Shown here: in pieces, positions 2,215 to 8,089 of the stretch
Layout: every line of letters starts with the position of its first letter
How positions within the stretch are numbered: position 1 is the first letter of the stretch
Assembly: GCA_938021445.1 (NCBI GenBank)
Contig: CALIGR010000010.1
Span: forward strand, 1-11,891
Source of the DNA: an uncultured Candidatus Altimarinota bacterium
GTDB lineage: Bacteria; Patescibacteriota; Gracilibacteria; UBA4473
Length of the DNA: 11,891 nt
Direction of reading: 5' to 3'
Made by a program: the position numbers and the translations under genes
The notes under the pieces: model-generated
The model's input: the letters and a program-made list of their open reading frames with translations, nothing else
Told to the model about the DNA's origin: nothing
Database searches by the model: none

Positions 2215-2631
2215 ATGGCTTACAAATTAAAGACTACTGCTACCGATGAGAACGTTGTGGGATTTTTAAATACCGTCGACCCCAAAGAAAAACGAGAAGA
2301 CTGTCTAAGACTTCTAGATATGATGCAGGATATAACTGGTGAAAAAGCCGTTCTTTGGGGAAAGATAATCGGATTTGGAAAGTATAAATATAAAGCCAGT
2401 AGCTATGACGCTGAGTACCTCAAAACCGGTTTTGCACCAAGAGCCGCTGGAATCTCGGTCTACCTCATGACCGGCTATGAAGATTACAGTAAATACTTAA
2501 CCAAACTGGGAAAACATAAAAAAGGAAAATCTTGTCTTAATATAAAAAAACTAGAAGACCTAGATCTTGAGGTTTTAAAAACCATGATAAAACTTGATTG
2601 GGATAAAATGAGTGAGCGCTATCCCGACTAA
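2215..2631 (+). CDS. DUF1801 (YdhG-like) domain protein
   Basis: Small soluble protein of 138 residues covering one complete DUF1801 domain. Signature pieces visible are AVLWGKIIGFGKYKYKASSYDAEYLKTGFAPRAAGISVYLM (about 45-85) and LTKLGKHKKGKSCLNIKKLEDLDLEVLKTMI (about 95-125), matching the family pattern of W-G-x-x-GFG-x-Y, GF-x-PR, LGKHK-x-GKSCL and KKL-D-D. The biochemical role of this family is not established. Proteins of this fold are common in bacteria and sometimes sit near stress or regulatory genes. It has no signal peptide or membrane segment. It begins 17 bases after the exchanger gene with no good ribosome binding site, so it may be translated from the same mRNA. Its TAA stop overlaps the TAG stop of the convergent 530-aa gene by two bases. 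Confidence 0.88.
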   Translation: MAYKLKTTATDENVVGFLNTVDPKEKREDCLRLLDMMQDITGEKAVLWGKIIGFGKYKYKASSYDAEYLKTGFAPRAAGISVYLMTGYEDYSKYLTKLGKHKKGKSCLNIKKLEDLDLEVLKTMIKLDWDKMSERYPD

Positions 2632-4220
2632 GCTGCTATCGCTTGAGGTTTTGTAAGGTTTCCACGTACATGAGCCGCTGCAGCTTTTACATCTTCAGGA
2701 TTGGCGGAGTAAATCGAGTTACTTGAGAATTTTTCTGGATCAACCACAAACGCATACGACATCAAAAGAAGCATTGGATGCTTGCTTTCCATATAAGCTG
2801 AGCAGCTTAACACTTTTTGGGCTTGTGCGACTGTAAAATTATCCTGAGAAAGTGAAAAACCATTGAACGCAAAGTGGTCATTGGGATTTTTAAGCTTCTT
2901 GTCATCTTTCACATTATCGTTGGCAATGATCTGCAAATAATCTTGATACATCGTTCCCTCTCCCCCCTCCAGGCTTGGCTGGGCTTTCATCCAATTCACT
3001 TTGGCCTGTGAACCATAATTAATAAACGCATAGATCTTATCGGGGCTCGTAAATCCATATTTAGCGAGCTGGTTTGTCATCTGATCACACATCGCGGGGA
3101 TTTTATCCAACGCTTGCAGTTTTAAGCCCAAGGCCTCTGGCGATTCTTCAGCAATCTCCGCTTGATTGTCATTCGCGGCTAAAGGCACTGCGTTGTCATT
3201 AGCGGCTTTTTTATTAACTGGCACTTTTCGACCAGTCATCGCTTTAAACTTATCCTGAAGCTCATTAACTCGGTTTTTAGCCGTATCTCTTATTTCGCGA
3301 GTCTTTTCAATTTCCTGCTTTATATCCCGAGCCTCTTCTAGCTCAGCTTTAAGTGACTGAACCGGTTCACTTTGATACGCCGCTTCACCTAGATGTGTAT
3401 ATATGAGCGTCAAGGCTTCCAGGCCATCCTTTGGGAAAAATAATTTTTTTCGAGCATTCTTTAAAAACGCATGAAAGTTCTTCTGCCTGGTATTAAATTC
3501 TTTTACCAGCTGCGCATAAAGCTTCTTCATATAACTCTGACTCTGGGCGGCCGCAAAACGGATATGCCAGTCATTGGCTTCTTCTGCGTTGAAAAAAGTG
3601 TTTTCATATTTCTGAGAGGCATACTCTCTATATCGATCTAAATTGACCATATCGACGATCCGAAAAACACGGATCTTCTCATTAAGGTCCTTGATTCGCT
3701 TTTCATAATCATCAAAGGGAACCGCCTCTAACTCTTTCTGAAGTTTTGCTACGTGTCTTGGGTCAACTTCTTCTAGTAATTTTCCTTTGGTCTCATCTAA
3801 TAGTGTCTTCCTGTTTTTGGCCCTCTCAATAAGCCCCAAAATAGACTGTTCGTACTTTTTAAAATCACCGGTGTGGAAATCGTTTCGATCAAATCCTTCT
3901 AGCTTATCTTTCAGTATAGAAACAACACTCGCTTCATCCAAACCTGGATGTTCTGCCCGAAAAGCCTTAATCGCCACAACGATTTGGTTGAACTTTAGAA
4001 CCAAGTTATCAATAGCTCCTCGCTTCTCCGCTTCCGTCAGTCCTTCGCCTTCTGCAAAGTTTTCTAATAACCCCAAAGTTTCTCCTATAAGTATCTCTGG
4101 TATTTTGAGGAGTGACTGCTGGGTTTGAACCTCCTGTTTAGTTTTAAACAAGAAGGCCTCAAAGTCAGGAGACTTCGCCGTCAGATCATCTTCAATGGTT
4201 TCCGCTGCACTTTGGGACAT
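2628..4220 (-). CDS. Hypothetical 530-aa coiled-coil protein with ANDN linkers
   Basis: I do not recognise a family. The 530-residue product has no signal peptide or membrane segment and is rich in charged residues, so probably cytoplasmic. The N-terminal part (1-280) looks alpha-helical, with repeated K/E-rich helices. A coiled-coil-like stretch spans about 285-327 (LKAELEEARDIKQEIEKTREIRDTAKNRVNELQDKF, described here in part). A flexible linker follows with two AANDN motifs (339-343 and 348-352), and another ANDN lies at 433-436. A C-terminal globular part (about 365-520) contains KIPAMCDQMTNQLAKYGF and KVLSCSAYMESKHPMLLLMSYAF, perhaps a small helical domain. ATG 4220 is the only reasonable start and has no Shine-Dalgarno site. 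The gene is convergent with DUF1801 and divergent from the large RNA. It could be a lineage-specific structural or scaffold protein, but that is a guess. Confidence 0.8.
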   Translation of the reverse strand: MSQSAAETIEDDLTAKSPDFEAFLFKTKQEVQTQQSLLKIPEILIGETLGLLENFAEGEGLTEAEKRGAIDNLVLKFNQIVVAIKAFRAEHPGLDEASVVSILKDKLEGFDRNDFHTGDFKKYEQSILGLIERAKNRKTLLDETKGKLLEEVDPRHVAKLQKELEAVPFDDYEKRIKDLNEKIRVFRIVDMVNLDRYREYASQKYENTFFNAEEANDWHIRFAAAQSQSYMKKLYAQLVKEFNTRQKNFHAFLKNARKKLFFPKDGLEALTLIYTHLGEAAYQSEPVQSLKAELEEARDIKQEIEKTREIRDTAKNRVNELQDKFKAMTGRKVPVNKKAANDNAVPLAANDNQAEIAEESPEALGLKLQALDKIPAMCDQMTNQLAKYGFTSPDKIYAFINYGSQAKVNWMKAQPSLEGGEGTMYQDYLQIIANDNVKDDKKLKNPNDHFAFNGFSLSQDNFTVAQAQKVLSCSAYMESKHPMLLLMSYAFVVDPEKFSSNSIYSANPEDVKAAAAHVRGNLTKPQAIAA

Positions 4221-4327
4221 GCGGAGACAATTCTAGTACTTTTAAAAAAGTCGTCACGAAAAAATCGCACAAACCCGCTCTTACAAACAAAGTCGAAATA
4301 CTTTCTTACTTTTTTACATAAAAAGTT

Positions 4328-4356
4328 TTGACAAAACTATGCTGCCCGATTAAGAT
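4328..4356 (+). promoter_or_regulatory. Near-consensus sigma70 promoter of the large RNA
   Basis: TTGACA (4328-4333), an exact 17-base spacer, then TAAGAT (4351-4356; five of six match TATAAT). This is the best two-box promoter in the window. Transcription should begin near 4363. No start codon with a credible gene follows, but the structured repeats and a terminator do. Confidence 0.75.
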
Positions 4357-4461
4357 ACTCTGAACACTTCGCTCTAAAAGAAAAAACGAGCTCAAGTCCC
4401 TTCACAAGAAAAAACTGATCTTTGACACAAACAACCAACCAAAACAAAAAGAAACTCCTGA

Positions 4462-4758
4462 AGTGGAGAGGAAGAAGGCTTCTAGCCTCGAATTCTTCTT
4501 TCTCTCCGCTCGGCGATGAGGTTCCTAAGAATGCGTTCTTAGAAATCCCCATTACAATTCGATTGATCGATTGAGACTAGTCTTTGAAAAAAGACATTAC
4601 AGATTGCAATGTCTCTTTCTGACCAATCAACAAGCGTTGTAAAGGTTTTAAAACTTCTGATTTGTAATTTAAGCATTTTGACCTTGTTGTCAAAATCAAA
4701 ATTACCCATAAATCCCGTAGGATCTTCGGTTATAGATACCAAAGCCTTGGCGAGAGTT
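4462..4758 (+). repeat. RNA domain copy 1
   Basis: Landmarks in order: stem AGTGGAGAG/CTCTCCGCT (4462-4470, 4502-4510) capped by its own arm; hairpin CTAAGAA-TGCG-TTCTTAG (4525-4542) leading to AATCCCCAT; CTAGTCTTTGA (4577-4587); hairpin AGACATT/AATGTCT with 9-nt loop ACAGATTGC (4592-4614); GACCAA (4621-4626); the 16-mer AAGGTTTTAAAACTTC (4642-4657); hairpin ATTTTGAC/GTCAAAAT around CTTGTT (4675-4696); TCCCGTAGG (4713-4721), whose last bases open the bulged hairpin GGATCT/AGATACC (4720-4740); GGCGAGAGTT (4749-4758). Each has a counterpart in copy 2, 405-431 bases downstream. Confidence 0.8.
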
Positions 4759-4869
4759 TCCTCTCGGGGCAAATACAAGTCTCTCAATTACAACCTGAGT
4801 CTCGACTTTACATTTTGCCCTGAGAAAACTTTTCTACTGATAGAACGACTTTTTGTTAACCACTATAAC

Positions 4870-5188
4870 AGTGGAGAGAAAGAAGCACTTATTGGAGTGC
4901 TTGTTCCTCTCCGCTCTGCGACGAGGTTTCTTAAGCTTAAACTATTTAAGGAATCCCCATCACACCGCGGTTAGGAAAGAACGCTAGTCTTTGATCCAAT
5001 CAAACGACATTCCAGATTGAAATGCCGTTTCAGACCAACCACTAAGCGCTGTGAAGGTTTTAAAACTTCAGAAATTAATACAATTTCAAACGACTCGTTT
5101 AAAGATTTTGTTAACTTGTTAATGAAAATTTTAGACATATGAGTCCCGTAGGTACTTCGGTAAAAGTAGCCAGAGCAAGGCGAGAGTT
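4870..5188 (+). repeat. RNA domain copy 2
   Basis: Same order as copy 1: AGTGGAGAG/CTCTCCGCT (4870-4878, 4907-4915) with apical arm AAGCACT/AGTGCTT; hairpin TTCTTAA/TTAAGGAA (4928-4953) leading to AATCCCCAT; CTAGTCTTTGA (4984-4994); 10-bp hairpin AAACGACATT/AATGCCGTTT with loop CCAGATTGA and one mismatch (5002-5030); GACCAA (5033-5038); AAGGTTTTAAAACTTC (5054-5069); hairpin ATTTTGTTAA-CTTG-TTAATGAAAAT (5105-5129); TCCCGTAGG (5144-5152); bulged hairpin GGTACT/AGTAGCC (5151-5171); GGCGAGAGTT (5179-5188). The offset from copy 1 drifts from 405 to 431, so the copies have gained and lost bases outside the conserved blocks. A competing short stem CCACT/AGTGG (4860-4874) could mask the first stem. 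Confidence 0.8.
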
Positions 5189-5215
5189 AAAAAATGCGGA
5201 TTGGTTGTCCGTTTT

Positions 5216-5283
5216 AACTTCTGATTCAACTTATGATCTCTCTTATACGAGTAACGATCTAAACCGAATCAGAAGTTTTTTTT
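5216..5283 (+). terminator. Intrinsic terminator of the large RNA
   Basis: A perfect 12-bp stem, AACTTCTGATTC (5216-5227) with GAATCAGAAGTT (5266-5277), encloses a 38-nt loop and runs into eight T (5276-5283). The unusually long loop may fold further. The left arm repeats an 11-mer of copy 1 (4652-4662). Confidence 0.85.
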
Positions 5284-5297
5284 GTATTTATATACTG

Positions 5298-5404
5298 GTT
5301 TGCCCTTAAAACTTCGTTTTAGCAAACATAGAATGACGTCGATTGCACGCTTCGCGTAGTAGAAAAACTATATTTTTCTCCAAATAATTTCTTCGAAATT
5401 GTTT
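5298..5404. other. Intergenic row of hairpins with TTC loops
   Basis: The stretch 5284-5538 between the large RNA and the SLH gene has no gene. It contains GTTTGC-CCT-TAAAAC/TTC/GTTTTA-GCAAAC (5298-5327), ACGC/TTC/GCGT (5347-5357), AGAAAAA/CTATA/TTTTTCT (5361-5379), and a stem of about 10 bp centred on AATTTC/TTC/GAAATT (5382-5404). Three of the four have the same C-TTC-G turn. From 5405 to 5538 the DNA is very A/T-rich. TATAAA (5416-5421) is a weak -10 candidate without a good -35, and I see no convincing promoter or ribosome binding site for the SLH gene. Confidence 0.6.
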
Positions 5405-5538
5405 TTTAAATCTAGTATAAAAGAGCACAATTTTAAAACAAAAACACTTTTTTTGTTCACAAAAATTGGACACAAATCGTCTCATAATAAAACTACTCTC
5501 TGTAAAGAGTTTACATTTTAAACATTGATTTAAAAAAA

Positions 5539-6594
5539 ATGAACATTCATAAAAAAGTTATTAGTCTCCTCTCTCTTAGTGCTTTATGCCTAACACCACT
5601 AAACTCCCAGGCCTATTTCACCGATATTGGGCTGGCTGACCCGCACTACACTGCCATTGGTTATCTGAAGGAAACTGGTGTCTTCAAGGGCTACCAAGAC
5701 GGGAGCTTTGGACGCGATAAAATCATTAATCGAGCTGAAGCCCTTAAAGTTATTTTAGCCTCAGCAGAAATCAGCACGAAAACTGGACTTAACTCTAAAT
5801 TTGCAGATGTACCAAAAGGTATCTGGTTCCACGATGTAGTTACGACCGGCGCAGCAGAAGGGATTGTTTCAGGAGATGGAAATGGGACTAACTTTGTTCC
5901 TGGGCGAACGGTCAATAAAGCAGAATTCATGAAAATGCTCATGAAGGCTTTTGCTATTGACCCCAATAGTGACGCCTTCACCTTGACCAAAACCGCTTCG
6001 GATCTACCTGACAATGCTTGGTTTACGCCTTATATGAAGTTTGCCCTTCAGTTCAACATTATGCGAACCGATGCGAACAACAACACACAACCCGCTCGTG
6101 AGCTCACTCGGGCTGGAGCCGCACAGTTGATCTTCAATACGATGCATAAAGGCCAAGGCCTTTCGCCTCAAGACCTACTTAATATTGGCGAAAGACATCT
6201 CGCCACTGCGTATGACGAACTCAATAAAGAAACCCCTGACCTTAAAGTCGCGGCTGTACTTGTGGCTCTCGCAAAAAACTACCTGAACTACGCGGATGAA
6301 AGAGTGGCTGACTCGGACACAACCAATCAAAACATTGTCTACTCGGCTCAAAAAATTAGCAACGCTACCGAAGATCTGATAAAGTCCTTGGTGCACCTGA
6401 CAACGAGTGTGTCTCCTGCAGGGCAAACCGCAAAGTATGACTTTGATGAAGTTATCGCGGCGACAAAACGATCATGGGCTTTCGCTCAAGAAGCACGAGA
6501 ACTTAACCCAAAAAGTGAAGCCTCGGCGCTTAAGATTCAAGATCTTTCTAAAAATATAGCTGATAAGGCTCGAGAAGCAAAATCGAGTCAGTAA
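5539..6594 (+). CDS. Secreted SLH-domain (S-layer homology) protein
   Basis: Predicted cell-surface protein held to the wall by three SLH repeats, which in characterised proteins bind pyruvylated secondary cell-wall polysaccharide. A signal peptide (M, KK, hydrophobic SLLSLSALCLTPL, then SQA) should be cut after about residue 25. SLH1 is at about 26-73 (YFTDIGLADPHYTAIGYL, GYQDGSFGRD, INRAEALKVI), SLH2 about 88-140 (FADVPKGIWFHDVV, VSGDGNGTNFVPGRTVNKAEFMKML in part) and SLH3 about 153-201 (ASDLPDNAWFTPYMKFAL, ELTRAGAAQLIFN). Residues 205-351 are alpha-helical, without motifs I recognise, and end in a lysine- and serine-rich tail. The start codon sits in an A-run with no Shine-Dalgarno site. 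It is transcribed alone and ended by the terminator at 6656-6691. It may be a surface anchor or S-layer accessory; at 351 residues it is small for a main S-layer protein. Confidence 0.9.
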   Translation: MNIHKKVISLLSLSALCLTPLNSQAYFTDIGLADPHYTAIGYLKETGVFKGYQDGSFGRDKIINRAEALKVILASAEISTKTGLNSKFADVPKGIWFHDVVTTGAAEGIVSGDGNGTNFVPGRTVNKAEFMKMLMKAFAIDPNSDAFTLTKTASDLPDNAWFTPYMKFALQFNIMRTDANNNTQPARELTRAGAAQLIFNTMHKGQGLSPQDLLNIGERHLATAYDELNKETPDLKVAAVLVALAKNYLNYADERVADSDTTNQNIVYSAQKISNATEDLIKSLVHLTTSVSPAGQTAKYDFDEVIAATKRSWAFAQEARELNPKSEASALKIQDLSKNIADKAREAKSSQ

Positions 6595-7900: not shown

Positions 7901-7909
7901 TCATAAAAT

Positions 7910-7941
7910 AAAAAAAACCGCTCTGTGATTGGATAGAGCGG
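7910..7941 (-). terminator. Intrinsic terminator downstream of the lyase-like gene
   Basis: On the minus strand CCGCTCT (7935-7941) pairs with AGAGCGG (7918-7924) over a 10-nt loop and runs into eight T (7917-7910). It would end transcription coming from the flavoenzyme/lyase operon or from a short RNA starting near 8060. Confidence 0.85.
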
Positions 7942-8089
7942 CTTATAAATTATTTGTTGAACTATAAATTTATTCAATAATCACCACTCTCTCGGGCGAG
8001 CACGCCTGAGAAAAAATAAGAAGTAAAAATCGAAATAAGATAGTTCATATATTTGGTAAAACTAACTATTATTTTAAAATAATAGTTTG
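7942..8089. other. AT-rich intergenic stretch with hairpin and perfect palindrome
   Basis: No gene is visible. It contains a GC-rich hairpin CTCGGGCG/CGCCTGAG (within about 7990-8011, one mismatch) in otherwise AT-rich DNA. It also contains a perfect 24-base palindrome, AACTATTATTTT (8064-8075) with its complement (8076-8087), directly after the lyase stop. On the minus strand the palindrome is preceded by TTGACA (8087-8092), with a poor -10 (TAATAG) at 16 bases spacing. A roughly 150-nt minus-strand transcript to the terminator is possible but unproven. Confidence 0.5.

Follow-up and report, generated by a model that had tools for sequence, protein, structure and literature searches.

Large structured RNAs are few in bacteria, and those with solved structures proved to be unusual RNA assemblies, according to one report (PMC12286853). 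OLE RNA, a large stand-alone bacterial RNA of ~600 nt in the abstracts that describe it, is called dimeric there, and GOLLD and ROOL are called phage or prophage borne (PMC12286853). The raiA motif, or ModT RNA, is a conserved structured RNA of many bacterial species, according to another report (PMC11706538).

The RNA described here resembles OLE RNA in being a large, stand-alone, structured bacterial RNA with no assigned function; it differs in having no Rfam match, other hosts, a boxA-like leader and a tandem-domain version. GOLLD and ROOL are also large ornate noncoding RNAs without an assigned function, but the present RNA has no Rfam match, and its relatives in a second bacterial family share chromosomal neighbors. 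The raiA motif is reported from Bacillota and others, whereas our RNA again matches no Rfam model. Like rRNA leaders, it carries a boxA-like element close to the 5' end, and this element resembles the one in 16S leaders of its own family; unlike rRNA leaders, it is not followed by rRNA and has its own structured core and a terminator-like end. Judged by sequence comparison, it is a new RNA family, outside Rfam 15 and common to two families of Gracilibacteria. Among the matches listed by a search of the open-access literature, none described an RNA of this kind from Gracilibacteria.

The window, which is the whole 11,891-nt stretch of DNA analyzed, is C10, one of the 192 contigs of genome G000 (1.04 Mb, 75% complete). 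Its family is designated f1 (20 genomes, G000 included) and a second family of the same class f5 (74 genomes); G numbers denote genomes and L numbers loci.

The probable RNA gene and its two domains

A 1.3-kb stretch separates a gene for a 530-aa protein (2628-4220, minus strand) from an SLH-domain gene (5539-6594). The 530-aa protein, encoded by the divergent neighbor of the RNA, has no Pfam match. Positions 4360-5283 of this stretch have the appearance of a self-contained RNA gene (Table 1). A preliminary description of this DNA had placed the RNA at 4363..5283; its end was retained, and its start was moved to about 4360, at the leader element CTGAACACTTCGC. The near-consensus promoter it had named is present, with promoter-like sites in 4200-5600 numbering 6 versus 2.5 in shuffles, and most f1 homologues have the form AAGTTTTGACA-N17-TAnnnT. 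The strong terminator it had claimed was also recovered, as fully paired arms running into T8, terminator-like by sequence. This hairpin was absent from the list returned by a terminator scan of the window, probably because its arms lie 38 nt apart and the loop limit of the scan is 8.

The predicted folding energy of the 921-nt region is -250.8 kcal/mol, as opposed to -202.6 ± 7.9 kcal/mol for 20 shuffles, none of which was so low (z = -6.1). The open reading frames inside it are 121, 82 and 71 aa long. The preliminary description had seen no credible protein gene here and had proposed looking for a protein frame conserved among homologues. In the RNA of the window and in 14 homologues, the longest frame without a stop ranges from 72 to 157 aa and keeps neither the same frame nor the same strand, and no conserved protein frame was found in the 1.3-kb stretch, in keeping with that view.

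Table 1. Coordinates and strand of the features of the RNA gene in the window.
Feature	Position	Strand	Details
RNA gene	4360-5283	+	promoter, boxA-like leader, two diverged domain copies, terminator-like hairpin
Promoter TTGACA-17-TAAGAT	4328..4356	+	10/12 matches; TTGACA at 4328, TAAGAT ends at 4356
5' leader element CTGAACACTTCGC	4360..4372	+	likely transcript start; kept in homologues
boxA-like element GATCTTTGACA	4417..4427	+	f1 leader pattern; similar element in 16S leaders
Domain A hairpin P1	4463..4509	+	GTGGAGAG... / ...CTCTCCGC (4502-4509)
Domain A hairpin P2	4522..4545	+	covariation, alignment A8
Domain A long-range helix P3	4552..4642	+	4552-4561 / 4634-4642, encloses hairpin 4588-4617; arms chosen by eye
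Domain A H-type pseudoknot	4715..4740	+	CCG 4715-4717 / CGG 4727-4729; GGATC 4720-4724 / GAT(A)CC 4735-4740
Domain A 3' strand GGCGAGAG (4749-4756), then TTTCCTCTCG	4749..4766	+	sequence; R2 match 4708-4769
Linker hairpin between domains	4762..4825	+	arms 4762-4773 / 4814-4825; exclusive of upstream fold-back
Domain B hairpin P1	4871..4914	+	CTCTCCGC at 4907-4914
Domain B hairpin P2	4927..4953	+	arms 4927-4935 / 4945-4953; alignment A8
Domain B helix P3	4961..5053	+	CACACCGC / GCGCTGTG, encloses hairpin 5002-5030; arms chosen by eye
Domain B H-type pseudoknot	5146..5171	+	CCG 5146-5148 / CGG 5158-5160; GGTAC 5151-5155 / GTA(G)CC 5166-5171
Domain B 3' strand GGCGAGAG	5179..5186	+	possible alternative partner of CTCTCCGC
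Hairpin hp2	5196..5212	+	domain B only
Terminator-like hairpin and T8 (5276-5283)	5216..5283	+	arms 5216-5227 / 5266-5277, 12/12 paired

The two domain copies share direct repeats that stay in register at a spacing of ~405-431 nt (45 nt at 84% and 37 nt at 81% identity), with further in-register repeats of 38 nt at 74% and 23 nt at 87%; GGCGAGAGTT is identical in copies A and B. Identity between the copies is 70% in the 5' core and 59% in the 3' core. The 5' core of the single-domain homologue in G009 has an identity of 0.67 to copy A and 0.73 to copy B, compared with 0.70 between the copies themselves; the duplication is therefore not recent. A large RNA with internal duplication, as proposed earlier, is supported by the repeats, the fold energy and the homologues. 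The further proposal of two diverged domains with the same order of hairpins agrees with the in-register repeats, except that hp2 of copy B has no clear counterpart in copy A. No second copy of the motif was found within the same RNA in the 15 other f1 RNAs read: the two-domain form is peculiar to the window's genome, and the other f1 RNAs read consist of a single domain.

Homologues in f1 and f5

The RNA was found in 15 of the 20 f1 genomes, G000 included and G015 being the fifteenth, and was sought and not found in five. A blastn search over 60 relatives detected it in G007, G009, G016 and G019; on reading, no such RNA was seen at two initial matches of this kind, L007 (in G020) and L008 (in G001). 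In G014, a complete, diverged homologue was located through a match to the promoter. Related genomes were also searched with covariance models, as the preliminary description had suggested, and homologues were found; the models R1, R2 and R3 were built from at least seven copies rather than from the window's two. Searches over more than 40 genomes used stricter filters. Over 353 genomes of the class, R1 returned six f1 genomes plus a second copy in G014, with nothing outside f1 and no f5 member, and R2, applied to all 20 genomes of f1, added G005. A pattern for the leader, allowing up to three mismatches, matched 9 of 20 f1 genomes (reversed control, 0), adding G006, G011 and G018, and the motif CTCTCCGCTKTGCGAYGA with one mismatch matched 14 of 20 f1 genomes and 0 of the 333 others of the class (reversed control, 1/353).

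R1 gave E values of 6e-11 for G011, 3e-8 for G017 and 6e-5 for G010, none of which had gone into the model, and R3 gave 5.8e-6 and 1.1e-5 for the held-out genomes G006 and G004. At default filters R1 missed G004, G006, G013 and G018 even at E ≤ 10, and the true place in G015, with an R3 E value of 0.046, ranked under two chance places of that genome. R3 hits in G001, G002, G003, G008 and G012 (best E from 0.018 to 0.96) were at noise level; the one in G001 was read and rejected, and the stretches in G003 and G012 were without the motif. Genome contigs contained 13 stretches that matched the motif, 7 of them the RNA; the 6 others (L032, L033, L036, L037, L040 and L041) had no R1 or R2 match. 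Two copies were found in G014, on different contigs (L006 and L044), and in G006 (L066 and L068, one of them truncated by a contig end).

Over 379 genomes of the phylum, R3 at E ≤ 0.01 matched 16 genomes: 2 of f1, 7 of f5 and 7 others. All seven f5 loci had the motif CTCTCTGCTCTGYGAYGWCG, P2, the pseudoknot and a terminator-like end. Six of the matches outside both families (G373, G389, G429, G519, G630, G634 and G653) were read and contained no such RNA; the one in G653 had no locus to read. The pattern CTCTCYGCTYTGYGAYGNCG, with one mismatch, matched 62 of 353 class genomes, 15 of f1 and 47 of f5, and 0 of the 259 class genomes outside the two families, as counted from the listing (reversed control, 0/353). 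A motif hit in G235 (L189) had neither pseudoknot nor P2 and was taken as chance. In the form of a shorter relative, the RNA occurs in 46 of 74 f5 genomes, the pseudoknot having been seen in 35 genomes and, for each of 11 more, in one locus or both; it was not found in 28. A T run follows the motif at 245-291 nt in 34 of 37 f5 rows; L143, L144 and L155 differ.

Eleven f5 genomes had two motif hits, and in seven of these (G195, G203, G204, G219, G230, G238 and G252, which have two copies of the RNA) both loci carry the pseudoknot. In the second copies L191 (G236), L192 (G237), L208 (G220) and L209 (G221), the motif is accompanied by a P2-like stem, with no pseudoknot detected by script. Double copies in f5 often differ in motif, being of GCGAYG versus GCAAYG types.

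A gene for a TPR protein is the common downstream neighbor at 24 of 35 f5 loci, on the opposite strand in 23 of the 24, and 17 of the 35 loci have a common upstream neighbor, also on the opposite strand; the one example compared with Pfam gave no match. These shared neighbors fit vertical inheritance. Five of 15 f1 loci are divergent from a gene that we take to be ruvB, and 3 of 15 share a gene that is presumably yebC. Taken as gene order, the neighborhood would fit a vertically inherited, independent RNA gene.

Predicted base pairing within the RNA

Base-pair covariation, assessed by shuffles, slides and swaps that ignore kinship among the sequences, was strong and supports P2 and the H-type pseudoknot. 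Of the five measures used, two were less striking for both elements. For P2 we used A8, a sequence-only MAFFT alignment of 14 f1 copies (13 distinct). Its covariation was 0.621, compared with 0.227 ± 0.040 in shuffles (0/500 as high), with 80% of cells pairing, and slid versions gave 0.08-0.23 (maximum, 0.226). The less striking measures were pairs changed on both sides (6 versus 5.1; 153/500 shuffles) and further pair types (19 versus 15.1; 12/500). For the pseudoknot in 35 f5 rows, covariation was 0.240 versus 0.126 in shuffles (0/500), with 95% of cells pairing and less striking measures at 3/500 and 27/500; one pair was U-A in 19 rows, C-G in 13, A-U in 2 and other in 1.

The layout in these 35 f5 sequences is YUCG/CGAG enclosing GGUU, which pairs with a downstream AACC. 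When fixed windows in f5 were swapped between sequences, the own partner was better in 5,000 swaps for P1 (-27.8 versus -20.6 kcal/mol), for P2 (-10.9 versus -5.0 kcal/mol) and for the pseudoknot (0/5000 in each). The f5 sets exclude L127 and L131, the same places as L135 and L161. Alignment A10, which left out L128 and L157, was not used for counts because its P2 arms were shifted. A permissive script, run without a control, found the pseudoknot stems in 14 of 17 f1 copies (CCG/CGG with GGUAC/GUACC, GGUAA/UUACC, GGUGA/UUACC or GGAAAU/AUUUCC, for example), with the first stem in another register in G009, G016 and G019, and none in G010, G013 and G017, the last of which shows one by eye. It also found one in G015, which a stricter script had missed.

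The evidence for P3, the inner hairpin and hp2 is a pairing test whose arms were picked by eye; this choice biases the test, which also included P1 and P2. For P1, G013 and G017 were lost (the typed arm was not found) and G004, G006, G007 and G014b were omitted; for P2, G006, G014b and G016 were omitted; for hp2, the arm in G007 was located at the wrong place. By eye, the inner hairpin (4588-4617 and 5002-5030 in the window) keeps A.C mismatches at two places in many homologues while its pairs change; A.C mismatches are also seen by eye in the GGACGACU...AGCCGCC version in other genera.

The middle strand CTCTCYGC can pair with the 5' arm, forming P1, or with the strand after AAGG, which is GGCGAGAG in f1 and GGCAGAGA in f5; the two pairings are mutually exclusive. 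In domain A, TTTCCTCTCG could also fold back on the 3' strand GGCGAGAG. Swap tests of the 3' pairing gave 9/5000 in f1 (moderate) and 316/5000 in f5 (not significant). All three strands differ jointly in G015 (GTAGAAAG, CTTTCTGC and GGCGAAAG), and the middle and 3' strands change together where CTCTCTAC occurs with GTAGAG (L151 and L156) and CTTTCTGC with GCGAAAG (G015). In L153 and L160 the 3' strand does not fully track the change in the middle strand, and L163 pairs with a gap. The 5'-arm pattern had no match in G004, G006 and G007. The alternative 3' pairing is possible, with weak to moderate support, and not proven.

The boxA-like leader and candidate explanations

An element like the boxA of the host rRNA leader was found in 13 of 15 f1 leaders, as TCTTTnACA or TCTTTnAAA (0.08 expected by shuffling, for a pattern picked after reading them), and in 25 of 35 f5 leaders by a loose pattern without a control, 19 having TTCACA (TCCTTCACA, for example) and 10 being without a match. 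Some leader ends were set by hand, and the G010 stretch begins too late. In 16S leaders of f1, GYTCTTTTnCATTTCG was present in 8 of the 8 that were long enough; in those of f5, GMTCnTTCACA followed by nnATCG was present in 10 of the 10 shown. As read from these patterns, the leaders of the RNA resemble the 16S leaders closely in f5 and more loosely in f1, a likeness from which we infer that the RNA would be made by antiterminated polymerase. The 16S element is itself family-specific, GYTCTTTTnCATTTCG in f1 and GMTCnTTCACAGCATCG or close to it in f5. Several 16S matches were split or overlong (L093-L098 in G010, G012 and G013; L176 and L177; L178-L185 in f5), which may reflect insertions in rRNA genes or broken contigs.

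In the reading that we consider probable, the locus is an independent gene whose product, a large structured noncoding RNA from a family outside Rfam 15, is antiterminated, adopts two states and acts in trans. Comparison of sequences backs its promoter- and terminator-like ends, conserved fold, homologues in two families and boxA-like leader. The boxA would recruit Nus factors, letting RNA polymerase complete the long untranslated transcript without early termination by Rho. Hairpin P1 would form first; the emerging 3' strand GGCGAGAG could then invade it, taking CTCTCYGC as its partner, so that the core would be closed over P2, P3 and the pseudoknot and the RNA would have two mutually exclusive states. 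Once mature, the RNA may act in trans, either as a structured RNA or as an RNP, and the internal duplication would have yielded the two-domain version in the window. A bolder form, which we entertain tentatively as rather unlikely, is a Gracilibacteria housekeeping RNA machine: antiterminated, passing by strand exchange from P1 to a pseudoknotted core, working as an RNP or ribozyme, and probably a dimer of which the window RNA is a covalent fusion.

Divergence from one of the established housekeeping RNAs (RNase P RNA, tmRNA, SRP RNA or 6S RNA) could account for the wide spread within two families, the strong conservation and the rRNA-like leader element, and yet is highly improbable. An unrecognized class had been suggested, with a comparison to all Rfam models proposed as a check; cmscan of the window with Rfam 15 (4227 models) at E ≤ 5 gave no match overlapping the RNA and two weak matches, both outside it. 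At 34 fetched RNA-bearing loci, which represent 33 distinct places (7 f1; 7 f5 among 13 sources; 20 f5), no match within the RNA was above cut-off, which supports the suggestion for the window and its homologues alike. Below cut-off, matches touching or adjoining the RNA were to Histone3 (L136, the best at E 0.0066, and L142), MIR2118 (L143) and SNORD105 (L131). For SRP RNA and 6S RNA, the comparison covered the RNA loci themselves, where neither gave an Rfam match above cut-off. RNase P RNA class A (RF00010) has a copy elsewhere in 9 of the 9 genomes searched, 7 over cut-off (G000, at E 6.9e-31, and G014, at 2.2e-30, fell under it), and for tmRNA (RF00023) a copy scoring over cut-off lies at another place in 19 of the 20 f1 genomes, including G000; the best match in G017 was a 77-nt stretch under cut-off.

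The RNA might instead be a long structured leader regulating the downstream gene in cis, which in the window is the gene for the SLH-domain protein at 5539; a similar SLH-type gene follows it, by eye, in G009 and G019. We give this very little credence, since that gene is separated from the RNA by a terminator-like end, neighbors differ by eye in G007, G013, G014 and G016, and the shared f5 downstream gene is nearly always on the opposite strand. The closeness of the boxA-like element to that of 16S leaders would also suit a decoy that titrates antitermination factors (NusB/S10) and so tunes rRNA synthesis, an option of low probability: one short element leaves several hundred structured bases unexplained, and rRNA itself bears the same element. 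Large size, internal duplication and two copies in some genomes would suit an RNA that, like GOLLD or ROOL, is mobile or phage borne, a reading to which we assign scarcely any probability. The covariance models of GOLLD and ROOL, and likewise that of OLE RNA, had no match above cut-off to the RNA in the window or at the 34 RNA-bearing loci. Two pattern scans of viral contigs gave 0 matches and 1 match, the latter inside a 132-aa ORF; neither these scans nor the neighbors in 50 loci revealed a phage or prophage context, and f5 loci have chromosomal neighbors in common.

For the stand-alone RNA gene, presence in two uncultured families with small genomes, together with conserved neighbors in one of them, suggests a basic cellular role. 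The rRNA-like leader offers a handle on how the RNA is made, and the two-domain copy allows one to ask, with a naturally occurring RNA, whether the single-domain RNAs work as dimers. Elsewhere in the window, 7907-8016 matched DUF3800-I RNA weakly (27 bits versus a cut-off of 44.2), probably as a terminator-like hairpin.
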